NCBI GenBank assembly: GCA_031316115.1
Contig: JALDRC010000005.1
Coordinates: 186,001 to 250,000, forward strand
Length of the DNA stretch: 64,000 nt
Source of the DNA: Nitrososphaeraceae archaeon
GTDB lineage: Archaea; Thermoproteota; Nitrososphaeria; Nitrososphaerales; Nitrososphaeraceae
Reading direction: 5' to 3'
A program made the translations under genes and the position numbers. Below, piece by piece: positions 4,392 to 27,653 of the stretch. The notes beneath the pieces were generated by a model. It was not told the DNA's origin, searched no databases, and saw only the letters and a program-made list of their open reading frames with translations. Each line of letters begins with the position of its first letter. Position 1 is the stretch's first letter.

Positions 4392-5783
4392 CTATGTCTT
4401 TTCCTTTCTCGTCTTTGATTGATAAAGTTCATTCAAGACTTCACGTAATATTTCCCTTACCCGTGCTTCTTCCAATTTTGGTTCAATTATTTTTAACGAT
4501 GTAGAACTTTCCTGCAAAGATTTTATTTTCCCTCCAAATTGTTTTTCCATCTCAGATACTCCGATAGACTTTAGAAGGTTAATATGAGGTTCGGCACTCT
4601 TATAAAATTCCTTCCTAAGTCTTGTATCCTGAGATATATATTGTGATGAGGTAAAAATTCCAATAAGAAGTAGGTATGCGCCTATTGGTAAAAATGCTTC
4701 TGTTATAAACCCATACGGAGGATAAACGTGACTGCGTAATGGAGATATCTCAATTGAACAAAACAGGATCACCATGCCAATGAAGGAGATAAGAAGAGAT
4801 TTATGAACCTGAGGATGCCTGGTCAATGAAGATGCGCTCCAAAATGATAGACCGAAAAAGAAAGCTCCAACTTCCTTTGTAGCACTAAAAATCAGAATAT
4901 AAATTGCACTAAAAATAACTGGAGAGTAAAACAACCATGTGAAAATTTGATCTACAAAATAATTCTGAAAAGGAAAGATATAATATATCAAAGGAATCGC
5001 TAAAAGTACAAAAAATTTTATTCTGCCAATCTTGTATCTATAATGACCCAGAAGTATAGCTGTAGATATCCACATAACTAAAAATGAAGACAAAGATAAA
5101 ATATCATATAGCATTGATAATGATTCAGTAATAGGTGACCCAGGAATGTTTACTACATATGAAGTAATAGGGTATGGTTTTACATCTGGAAATACATAAA
5201 ATGAAAAATAGGATTGAATGTATATTAGAGAGATAATAAGGTTAACTGAAGCAAGCGAGAAGGCTATAACAAACAAAATAATTATGTAATTTATTTTTTT
5301 AGTTAACCAACTAATAAACAAATATATCAAATACGAGAGGAATACAAGTGCAGAAAGATAGCTAAAATATGTTTGTATTTCTAGCAAAATTAGACTATAT
5401 TTATTAACAAATAACATTTGGAAAATAATAATTAGCGTTATCGCAGCAGTTAAGATTAGTGTACCACAAATTATGATGTAAAAATAACGTGTACGTAAAT
5501 GTTTTATTGGATAGGAATCTCCTGAGCTGAGTTTTCTAACATAATTAAGAAGAATTGGGGTAAATGTTAGAAATATTATAGAAAAAATCAAGAAAATAGC
5601 AAGGTGTAACCATATAGGAATTTTTAATCCACTGTATGAAGAGAACTTAACAATCGTTGCATCAAGTACAAAGACAGCTGTGAGAATTAAAACAAAAATA
5701 AATGCGTTCTTCTTGGATAGATTCAAGACAGCAAGGCTTTCTATTTTGTCTATCATTTTACTAAATAGAAGGGAGGAACGCAA
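4392..5783 (-). CDS. Polytopic membrane protein, ten to eleven helices, unknown family
   Basis: A 463-residue integral membrane protein with about 10-11 hydrophobic segments between residues 25 and 390, then a hydrophilic tail of about 75 residues with an amphipathic charged helix (EPKLEEARVREILREVL). I do not recognise a named family and see no catalytic or transport motif. It is divergently paired with a secreted protein (66 bp between starts). A decayed homologue of this protein lies at about 25797-26990, again beside a decayed homologue of the same secreted protein. The best-matching segment runs from NKYSLILLEIQ through KKINYIIILF and VNLIISLIYIQ. The repeated linkage suggests the two act together at the membrane, the large protein perhaps as receptor, exporter or anchor; that role is inference. 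Confidence 0.8.
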   Translation of the reverse strand: MRSSLLFSKMIDKIESLAVLNLSKKNAFIFVLILTAVFVLDATIVKFSSYSGLKIPIWLHLAIFLIFSIIFLTFTPILLNYVRKLSSGDSYPIKHLRTRYFYIIICGTLILTAAITLIIIFQMLFVNKYSLILLEIQTYFSYLSALVFLSYLIYLFISWLTKKINYIIILFVIAFSLASVNLIISLIYIQSYFSFYVFPDVKPYPITSYVVNIPGSPITESLSMLYDILSLSSFLVMWISTAILLGHYRYKIGRIKFFVLLAIPLIYYIFPFQNYFVDQIFTWLFYSPVIFSAIYILIFSATKEVGAFFFGLSFWSASSLTRHPQVHKSLLISFIGMVILFCSIEISPLRSHVYPPYGFITEAFLPIGAYLLLIGIFTSSQYISQDTRLRKEFYKSAEPHINLLKSIGVSEMEKQFGGKIKSLQESSTSLKIIEPKLEEARVREILREVLNELYQSKTRKEKT

Positions 5784-5849
5784 TTTTCTTTACAATAAGA
5801 ATTACATTTCTGATAGTTTAGTTTATCGAAAATAATAATAACAACACGA

Positions 5850-6677
5850 TTGTTAAAGAAATTCATGAAGAGCAATAAGAACATGTGTTATGCTAAGAAA
5901 CATGGCATAACATCTTGTATCTTGGGTCCATTTTTACTTTTCTCTATTTTTCTTGTGATTTTTGGAATTCATAATGCATATGGAGTGATTGAAGTGTTTT
6001 CAAAAGACGAGAAACCATTCAACGTATCTTATGATGATTGGGTTTCTAGATATTGGAATTGGGATTTTTCGCTAAGTACAGATGAATTTACTCCGAAATC
6101 TGATGGATGTATTATCAATAAATCAGAACCAATGGTTATGTTGTTGAATACAGTAGCTGAAGGGCAAGTTCATCAGGTATGTACAATTTCGTCAGAGCAG
6201 GGTATCTTGATACCTATGTGGATCGCCTGGTGCGACACTGGAACGGATCTAATACATATTCGAGATCCAACTTCAAATTTAGATGAACAGTTAACGAAAT
6301 GTGCCAGAGAAGTATACAATCTAGGAAATATAAGATCAGAGGTCAAAGTTGATGGAGTTCCAGTAGCAAATCTTGACGTAAAAATGTCAATGTCATCTGG
6401 ATCATTAGAATATAATATAAATTCTCTAACTAACGTTACTGAATTATTTACAGGAGGATTTAACGTTACTCTTCCATCGGATACTCATCAAGCAGGTTAT
6501 GAGCCAGGCACATTTCGTGCAGGAAGTCATGGATGGTGGGTCTTTCTCAAACCACTTCCCCCAGGAGAACATACAATATTTTACAATATTCGTGTAACTC
6601 CAATAGGAGCTCTCACCTCTGCTGGTACCAGTCCGCATTTCGCAGATATTGAATATTCTCTTCAAGTAGTGAAGTGA
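5850..6677 (+). CDS. Secreted protein with WxW motif and paired cysteines, unknown family
   Basis: About 275 residues from a TTG start; an ATG six codons in (5865) may be the real start. A hydrophobic segment at residues 23-45, ending near NAYG, looks like a signal peptide or N-terminal anchor. The mature part begins with [13 protein letters not shown], then cysteines in DGCIIN, HQVCTIS, AWCDTG and TKCARE, followed by a beta-rich half ending in a [17 protein letters not shown] segment. Spacing is conserved in the decayed copy at 27101-27650 (WDW, C-x-I-P-x-G, CDG, QCA), which defines a family even though I cannot name it. The cysteines may form disulfides outside the cell or bind metal. It is divergent from the membrane protein and probably shares its promoter region. 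Confidence 0.78.
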
Positions 6678-24223: not shown

Positions 24224-24931
24224 GGCTCTGTTAATTTAATCAGAAACAGATAGAGCTAAGAACATTCTATCTATCATATGAATCAAATCTAATTTGAAAG
24301 AAACAGAACATCTACATGTATAGTGATGTATTCTTTGAATTTGTACTTTCTTGGTTTGAGTTTACGTAATACATCTAAAGCATTAATAATATTTAGAGAT
24401 GAAAAGCGAAGTCATGTTTCTGTTTGGAATTGGATACAAAGATTTAGTTCTTGTCAGATCTACAAAAGAAAAAGAGTAACCGCTTTTATTATAGATGAGA
24501 CTGTGATCCAAATAGGAGATCATCATTTTTGGTTATGGATTTGTATTGAACCAGTTCAAAGATCTGTGCTTGGAATCTATATCTCTGAAGATAGAAACAT
24601 GCTTGTAGCAGAGAATTTTATCAGATCTCTTGTATCCAGATATGGTAAACATACCATCTATACAGATGGTGGTACCTGGTATGATCAAGCCTGCGACGTA
24701 ATTGGATTAAAACATCATTTGCATTCTTCAATAGAGAAAAGTTTGATGGAAAGAGTAAACCAGTTTTTGAAAGATCGTATAGAAAGTTTTGATGATTACT
24801 ATCCATGTAGACAAGAGGAATGTAATTTATTATACGTTAATAACTGGATAATTCTTTACTTATACAATGATACTATAGCAAACAATAACTTTGAGTTAGG
24901 AAAAGGAGGTAATATTACCACTAACAGAGCC
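24224..24931 (+). mobile_element. IS6-like insertion sequence, 708 bp
   Basis: Bounded by a 10-bp terminal inverted repeat: GGCTCTGTTA at 24224-24233 and TAACAGAGCC at 24922-24931. The GGCTCTGTT ends and a single DDE transposase on about 700-800 bp fit the IS6 family. The 8-bp flanks do not match (CTTTGCCT left, AGTCTAGA right), so no target duplication is left; replicative IS6-type movement followed by rearrangement could explain this. Two decayed relatives lie at 15550-16130 and 33796-34202. Confidence 0.82.
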
Positions 24932-25066
24932 AGTCTAGACAACAAGAAAATGAAAGACTTCAATTTTACATCTATTAAATACACTGATAATAAAAATAAA
25001 TTGAAGATATTAGAAACATATATTATTTCTAAAATATGGGATGTGATTGTGATGTTAGTGTTGTAA
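24323..25066 (+). CDS. IS6-like DDE transposase, reading through the right inverted repeat
   Basis: 247 residues from a GTG (an ATG follows at 24326). A short N-terminal helix-turn-helix region ([10 protein letters not shown]) precedes an RNase H-fold catalytic core. Candidate acidic residues: Asp59 in IIDET, Asp115 in YTDGG and Glu143 in [13 protein letters not shown], with a Lys seven positions on. The spacing between the second and third is shorter than in classical IS6 enzymes, so the family name is approximate. Only about the first 202 residues lie inside the element; the remaining 45 are host sequence read past the right repeat, so the native stop seems lost. Activity is possible but uncertain. 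Confidence 0.8.
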
Positions 25067-25764: not shown

Positions 25765-25796
25765 TTAAATTTAAAAGATTTAGTTATCTAGAATAT

Positions 25797-26990
25797 AAAA
25801 ATATTATTTTTAATCTTTAGTATAATCTTTTATATTTATCGATTATATTTATTAAAAAAAATTAAAGAATCGTTATATGCTATTTCTTTTCATTCAGATA
25901 GAAATAGAAAATCAATAAGAGGATTAACATTTAATAGGGTATATATTATGCTATTTTCACTAGTCAGTTAATTTTACTGGATTAATATGTTATTTATTAA
26001 TAGATATTATTGTATTGAACAAGTATTTTGTTGTAGAAGTATTATTGACTGTAATATGCTCATATGTTACTGGAATATTTTTTTTACTATTTACTGCATT
26101 TAAATTTATAAATGGTATAAACAAAAAAATAATCTCCTTTTTTTACTATATAGCATCTTTTTCTTTTTATTCTCAATCAATCTTGTAATTTCATCATTTT
26201 TATTAATTCATGCAACTTTAGAACATTCTAAAGAAAAAAGAGAGATTCCGATTTCTTTATTTTATTCTGGACTATTTGGAGAAAGAACAGAATTAGAAAA
26301 AAATAACAACATCATATACAGTCTTTTAAGTTCAATAATTTTTTTTTATTAATTTGGATTGTAAACGTATCATTATTAAAATTTATTCTAGTAGCATTAG
26401 GAAAATACAATATGGTATTTTTATTATTCTTCCACTATTATTTCTTTTTCTATATTTCAATATAAAGGTGGGGCACTCCAAGACATCTTTCATTTACCAT
26501 ATAATTTTCAAAATAATGCGGGTTATACCATTATCATTAGTTTATTTTGAATTAATTTTCAGTATACTTTTCGGAACGTATTTCTTGATAGCCTATAAGA
26601 AAATAGTAAATGAAATAATTAGAAAATATTTGATATTTATGATTATAGGAGTAATACTACTAGTTAGTTCCAAATGAAATATATTCATGTTATCTTTTTT
26701 ATCCTCCTTTTGGCACAATAATATCATATTGGAATATCTTCTTCTTGGTTTAATATGGATTTTTTGGTTTATCTGTGAGTTTATCAAAAAATCGGGAATT
26801 AGTAAAAGAGATTTCACTGATTACTGGGAAAAAGACCCTATTATGATAGACATTAGTTTATCGCAGTAATAGAAAACATAGTAAGAGAAAAAATCAATAC
26901 ATTGCCTCCTAATTTAACTTATAGACTTGACAGAGATAATGAAACAAAGATAAAGAATTACCAAAATGTTTGAATTAGTAAAAACAGAGA
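25797..26990 (+). pseudogene. Decayed homologue of the 463-residue membrane protein
   Basis: Pieces in shifting frames together spell a polytopic membrane protein. First piece: LFLIFSIIFYIYRL. Then LNKYFVVEVLLTVICSYV with a GINKKIISFFYYI piece and INLVISSFLLIHAT, matching NKYSLILLEIQ, KKINYIIILF and VNLIISLIYIQ of the intact protein in order. Later pieces (26354-26677 and 26687-26869) give the remaining helices, and a charged tail with IENIVREKINTLPPN matches the intact protein's cytoplasmic tail. At least five frameshifts or stops are present. It is followed by the decayed secreted-protein gene, so the two-gene module was once duplicated here. Confidence 0.75.
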
Positions 26991-27100
26991 TACTAAAATT
27001 CTAAGGAACTACTAAAAATCATAGTTAAATTATTAAAAAAAATCTATTTTTCCCTAGAAAACCAACTTTTATAATATATTTAATAGTATCAGAATTATCA

Positions 27101-27653
27101 ATGGACAAAGTGTATGGTCATAGATTCTATGTATTAGTAGTGATAATATCTTACACTATCATAATAAATTTTGCAAATAATATAATTGATACTTTTGCAC
27201 AGGATAGTAGTAATTTACCTTTTGATAAACCAAAAATTTAATCTTACTGATGATGAAATTACTAAAACATTCTGGGATTGGTCTCATAAGTGTAGAACAC
27301 GGTCCCAGATAGCGCCAATCCTTCAAAAGAAACGGAATGTGTAATGTATAAAGATGATAACAAAAAAATAGTAATTTTATTAGATCCATATTTTCTTGGT
27401 AAAATTGTCCAAAAATGTGATATTCCTACTGGGTATCACATAATTGGTCCCATTATATAATGCGCATTGTGATGGCTCAAATAAACTGGCTCTGAAAATT
27501 TTATTTGAGCAATTATTACAATGTGCAAAAGATGCAGATAAAGTTTCGATCCATTTCTTTTCTTTGCCTAATTATTTATTAAATATATATTTCATAAATT
27601 CCTGTTACCTCATTAAGGTAACATATACTTTTTTATCATCAGTAACAACTTAA
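27101..27653 (+). pseudogene. Decayed homologue of the WxW secreted protein
   Basis: Begins with an ATG at 27101 and a good signal peptide (VLVVIISYTIIINFANN). Three frame changes later the pieces read LTDDEITKTFWDWSH, VPDSANPSKETECVMYKD, IVQKCDIPTGYHIIGP and YNAHCDGSNKLALK with LLQCAKDAD. These match the intact secreted protein (5850-6677) in order: [32 protein letters not shown] and TKCARE. The matching part stops at about 27545, where the 26-bp repeat begins; the C-terminal half is missing. The frame 27444-27653 is only its last piece. Confidence 0.8.
27544..27569 (+). repeat. 26-bp exact repeat, copy 2
   Basis: Same 26 bases as 24198-24223. It sits exactly where the secreted-protein pseudogene loses its match to the intact gene. 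Confidence 0.85.

Follow-up and report, generated by a model that had tools for sequence, protein, structure and literature searches.

In the window, the whole 64,000-nucleotide stretch of a Nitrososphaeraceae genome analysed here, two open reading frames lie in divergent orientation at 4392-6677, where the original prediction had placed a membrane protein beside a secreted one. The first (4392-5783, reverse strand, 463 aa) encodes a polytopic membrane protein, referred to here as M, and the second (5850-6677, forward strand, 275 aa) a secreted W-x-W/four-cysteine protein, S. Both frames open with a TTG, at 5783 for M and at 5850 for S, and the ATG codons at 5756 and 5865, respectively, are the more likely starts. 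These ATGs lie ~108 bp apart and delimit a divergent intergenic region (5757-5864) that is a candidate promoter region, within which the short blocks TACATTT and ATCGAAAA are partly conserved in two relatives. The S family comprises exported members (Sx), to which the window S belongs, and a class lacking a signal peptide (Sc); in a profile search of the window, no Sc adjoins this pair.

Hydropathy and positive-inside loops predict 10 transmembrane helices for M with an N-in/C-in topology, followed by a charged, 68-aa C-terminal tail that is predicted to be cytosolic and holds no output domain. Its predicted outer loops include residues 196-216 and 344-364, the latter bearing a YPPYG motif. 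The AlphaFold model of M is a confident helical bundle (pLDDT 85.6, pTM 0.84), and S is modelled as a beta-sandwich after helices (pLDDT 86.1, pTM 0.80). The features of the S family, namely the W-x-W, the cysteine pairs, a C-terminal G-x-W..PL.PG.H block and, in Sx, a signal peptide, were all found. As had been predicted, the window S carries a W-x-W (W69-x-W71) and four cysteines (C87, C111, C128 and C151), but the spacing proposed for a third motif, C-x-I-x-x-x-G, proved wrong: the window S reads C-x-I-x-x-x-x-G, at a place where most homologues have C-x-I-P-x-G. The claim that both families are unnamed holds, as no credible Pfam, NCBIfam, PHROGs, PADLOC or PDB-sequence family emerged for M or S. 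Neither window protein matched Pfam, NCBIfam, PHROGs or PADLOC, and no convincing Pfam match was obtained with 36 aligned M proteins, enzyme and transporter families included, or with 39 aligned S proteins. Matches to PDB sequences were weak and partial, and we rejected on these grounds a GPCR identity for M and an antibody light-chain identity for S. Foldseek searches against the PDB and viral models likewise assigned no known fold, returning generic 7TM resemblance for M (E > 0.4) and generic Ig-like resemblance for S. An identity of S as a chagasin-type cysteine-protease inhibitor was also discarded, the best PDB match (E 8.5e-4, TM 0.22 by query, 10 Å rmsd) being generically Ig-like.

The window holds a second, decayed copy of the pair, and here the prediction of another broken pair in a different orientation was borne out by profile fragments. 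Matches to the M profile occur on the forward strand at 25792-26674, in several frames and with stops (fragments 25792-25968, 25964-26185, 26104-26349 and 26339-26674, in profile order; E 3.5e-8 at best, 1.6e-6 and 1.6e-5), and they are followed on the same strand, at 27029-27650, by matches to the S profile in several frames, again in profile order (E 7.7e-4, 0.16 and 0.37). This copy (25792-27650) is a tandem with M before S and has frameshifts or stops, in contrast to the divergent intact pair. The decayed M is preceded, at a distance of ~0.7 kb, by a transposase-like ORF (24323-25066), and similar ORFs are found upstream of an Sx-M-Sc cluster elsewhere in the same genome (C16:161-165 kb, L088) and in locus L085. 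The presence of transposase-like ORFs near modules suggests an IS-linked duplication or decay of modules.

Pairing of the two families extends well beyond the window. In six near-complete genomes, S adjoins M in 10 cases when 0.14 would be expected (Poisson p 7e-16), and of the 135 non-redundant, full-length S genes whose surroundings are sufficiently covered by the fetched regions, 88 have an M no more than 1.5 kb away, indicating that the pairing far exceeds chance. Since these regions were picked from matches to the window S and unpaired M are undersampled, such fractions are more representative for S than for M. The paired S genes are divergent from M in 55 cases (median gap 113 bp), convergent in 13 and in tandem in 20, with gaps that are lower bounds because ORF starts were taken as the earliest in frame. 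The window's own genome has four intact M genes, each with an S within 600 bp, and a fifth M that is broken. The two families also appear to have diversified together: distances in the S and M partner trees correlate across 60 pairs (Mantel Spearman rho 0.645; permutation maximum 0.27) and across 31 representatives split by deep M branches (rho 0.456; as high in 0 of 2000 permutations). Linkage in all orientations combined with this co-variation of the partner trees strongly supports the functional partnership that had been proposed for M and S. It is possible that M and S are simply co-inherited neighbours on a mobile genomic-island cassette and share no function, as the IS-like copies near the decayed pair (24323-25066) and upstream of the Sx-M-Sc cluster might indicate, along with the patchy occurrence of module copies. 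However, all relative orientations with short gaps recur in many lineages and the S-M linkage persists through deep divergence of both partners, and we regard mere co-inheritance as improbable.

The relation between the two families is nonetheless asymmetric, M being restricted to one family of archaea and S occurring alone as well, in an orphan archaeal clade and in bacteria. Of 150 genomes of the class searched with profiles, 14 were positive for M and 8 for S, all of them Nitrososphaeraceae, and every S-bearing genome among the 150 also has M, although the co-occurrence inside the family sample alone is not significant (p 0.12). No further genome with M appeared in a 200-genome sample of the phylum, such that in both samples M was detected in Nitrososphaeraceae only, where module copies are high and variable in number and reach ~25 in some genomes. 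Outside the family, S is found in Methanoperedens, Methanothrix, Krumholzibacteriia, Competibacteraceae, Desulfurivibrio and Verrucomicrobia. It is also carried by plasmids of the bacteria Paraburkholderia, Streptomyces, Deinococcus and Pseudoalteromonas, and a cyanobacterial homologue bears the annotation of a type I secretion target repeat protein. Lone homologues (those of Methanoperedens, Methanothrix, Verrucomicrobia, Paraburkholderia, Streptomyces, Deinococcus and others) have the same S domain and are mostly annotated as hypothetical, but differ from the module in that the loci inspected contain no M and no common gene neighbourhood; the bacterial neighbourhoods among them share no common partner gene. 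A phage origin of S was considered and dropped, as the Methanoperedens homologue has no match in phage records. Within the archaeal family, an orphan S clade (support 99, 25 rows) never adjoins M. Given this clade and the bacterial homologues, S does not depend on M beyond the paired clades, and there are M that lack an S. Thus, S is indeed commonly found without M outside the paired clades, while the pairing inside those clades stands. The proposed two-gene module is correct as to the pairing, but not as to size and symmetry, as S is widespread without M, M occurs without S, and additional Sc genes join many copies and DyP-like or YcaO genes some. The module is real and co-diversifying, yet larger and less symmetric than first claimed.

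One such addition is the signal-less class of S, which comprises 35-37 members without a hydrophobic N-terminus; in most of them, extending the frame back to the upstream stop codon does not supply one. While the cysteines corresponding to C87, C111, C128 and C151 are kept in 95, 98, 83 and 82% of 105 secreted homologues, Sc members retain these four in only 26, 34, 9 and 3%. Because they lack a signal peptide and have mostly lost the Sx cysteines, the latter being an independent sign, Sc proteins are probably cytosolic. They too keep company with M, as 31 of the 37 signal-less calls have an M at a distance of up to 4 kb, and three of the other six are cut by contig ends.

What M might do is best judged from its relatives. 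Positions 15-450 of the M profile cover residues 12-463 of two larger proteins of 1015 and 1021 aa (L069 and L070; E ~1e-75), in which the M domain is followed by an unassigned region, HisKA and HATPase_c, and whose genes have a response regulator 4-19 bp downstream. ORFs of ~1020-1050 aa that bear M occur in seven genomes of three genera, an architecture judged by ORF length, with HisKA found independently in two of the seven. Stand-alone M proteins end in a stretch homologous to the linker of these kinases. Measured against a sensor histidine kinase, the window M is homologous to the membrane sensor part (E ~1e-75, L069/L070) and lacks HisKA and HATPase_c, both of which are carried only by the ~1020-aa relatives. 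In several genera, M genes without S lie near genes for ParA-like ATPases, KaiC-like ATPases, histidine kinases or response regulators. Loci in which M is beside or near a ParA-like ATPase gene (L079, L080, L082, L241 and L250, from several genera), some with a KaiC-like ATPase, a kinase or a regulator close by, look like a conserved signalling cluster; the ParA-like genes of the fetched set are only near unpaired M. In 15 loci, a response regulator gene is found no farther than 4 kb from M, a raw count that includes paired M. In view of the kinase-fused relatives and of unpaired M amid ATPases, kinases and regulators, M is best read as a membrane sensor or transducer domain that is usually kinase-less. 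As to S, two members of the orphan clade, from two genomes, are fused to a dCache-like ligand-binding domain (dCache_1; E 7.6e-9 and 2e-11, 35.9 and 44.4 bits, below the Pfam cut-off of 45 bits). A Cache-type sensor identity does not apply to the window S, which has no dCache domain, dCache_1 being confined to these two fusions.

These relatives also bear on the idea that the pair is a toxin-immunity or surface interference system, in which S would be exported as an effector against which M gives immunity, both amplified and diversified by conflict. The high and variable copy number, the tight gene pairs in every orientation, the co-diversification of the partners and the decayed copies would all suit such a system. 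However, the use of M as the sensor of kinases and the existence of cytosolic S, with many signal-less S in the same cluster, make this scenario less likely. Moreover, lone S genes with no M are widespread, and PADLOC models, with which we also dismissed an anti-phage defence identity, matched none of M, S, two Sc and two DyP-like proteins. We consider conflict a very improbable origin of the module.

Membrane sensors specific to a lineage are a known kind in archaea, exemplified by the HisKA_7TM (PF16927) and HisKA_4TM (PF16926) domains of archaeal histidine kinases (PMC5847659). M resembles these in being a lineage-restricted polytopic membrane domain that is N-terminal to HisKA/HATPase_c in some proteins, but it differs in its helix count of about ten, in mostly lacking a kinase and in having a separately encoded secreted protein as its partner. 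M is absent from these named models, which matched none of 36 M proteins at E <= 0.1 and neither of the two full kinases at 0.01. The likeness to another class of receptors is conceptual. 7TMR-DISM proteins are polytopic receptors that combine an extracellular beta-sandwich domain with various outputs. M and S share with them an extracellular beta domain, a membrane bundle and intracellular signalling, but the parts are encoded by separate genes, the helix count is different and the Foldseek resemblance to 7TM proteins is weak (E > 0.4). The Pfam models of 7TMR-DISM matched no M or S member.

Further genes adjoin some modules. DyP-like peroxidase genes are near M/S modules at seven loci in four genera (L073, L149, L150, L173, L194, L195 and L227), a count that covers context-examined loci and leaves four further DyP-like hits outside it; one more DyP-like hit shares a contig with an S ~8 kb away. 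The module-linked genes diverge from canonical DyPs, and the canonical DyPs of two genomes (two genes) sit away from modules. An extra YcaO gene is beside the module at six loci in two genera (L134, L170, L173, L181, L186 and L195), including one at which it adjoins the closest relative of the window M (L134), and each genome with such a gene has one other YcaO elsewhere. In addition, a BNR-like secreted gene is convergent with one unpaired M subclade in two genomes (G021 and G027; L237 3195-3725, L234 4977-5213) and is a possible alternative secreted partner of M. Other secreted genes near further unpaired M are raw observations, and the idea that M always comes with a secreted partner is a lead. 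At another locus (L075 3457-4728), a gene for a clostripain-family (C11) peptidase adjoins a divergent S-M pair.

Owing to the DyP and YcaO neighbours, the main rival to a signalling function is an envelope biogenesis or enzyme module, in which M would be a membrane enzyme or transporter, Sx and Sc would form with DyP-like and YcaO proteins a surface oxidative or modifying pathway, and the kinase fusion would represent a sensor that arose from a transporter-like protein. Paired modules are adjoined by seven DyP-like genes and six additional YcaO genes, only two canonical DyPs were seen elsewhere (with a few DyP-like hits outside the context check), and ten helices is a transporter-like count too. 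Yet most paired copies, including that of the window, hold S and M alone, M matches no enzyme or transporter family in Pfam and resembles no PDB fold convincingly, and unpaired M reside in signalling clusters. On balance, an enzymatic or biogenetic role seems unlikely.

A more appealing scenario is that M and S belong to signal transduction, the best reading given that M is the sensor domain of histidine kinases and that a clade of S is fused to dCache. We propose, at roughly even odds (about 0.5), that the M-S pair is one copy of a Nitrososphaeraceae-specific, kinase-less receptor, with the secreted S as its extracytoplasmic sensing subunit and cytosolic S as an inner counterpart. Sequence places M in the membrane, gives Sx a signal peptide and shows no kinase in M; physical contact between S and M, the direction of the signal and its output are what we infer. 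M would be a ten-helix receptor or transducer that matches the sensor half of a histidine kinase, with a cytosolic tail at the point where a kinase would follow. Sx would be an exported, disulfide-stabilised extracytoplasmic subunit that receives the stimulus and works on M from outside, while Sc, present beside M in many copies, would probably act at the inner face. The signal would pass from Sx through M and its tail to soluble partners such as Sc, response regulators or separate kinases, and in some copies DyP-like or YcaO enzymes may be further soluble partners. Several observations weigh against such a receptor: paired M lack any recognised output domain and are not consistently adjoined by a kinase or regulator, the kinase-fused M form a branch separate from the window M in the tree, and the dCache fusions fall under the Pfam cut-off and within the orphan clade, outside the paired clades. 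The DyP-like and YcaO neighbours, moreover, indicate enzymology as much as signalling. A more specific version, in which one domain family operates on both faces of M, as disulfide-bonded Sx outside and cysteine-poor Sc inside, with optional DyP-like or YcaO effectors, is a tentative and rather doubtful extension of the receptor model.

A description of this module was not found in the open-licence papers that we searched. Little is known of how soil ammonia oxidisers sense their environment, and studies of archaeal sensors are few. The module is confined to one family of major nitrifiers, and two unnamed protein families gain a testable joint role. A receptor with one domain at work on either side of the membrane would be unusual.
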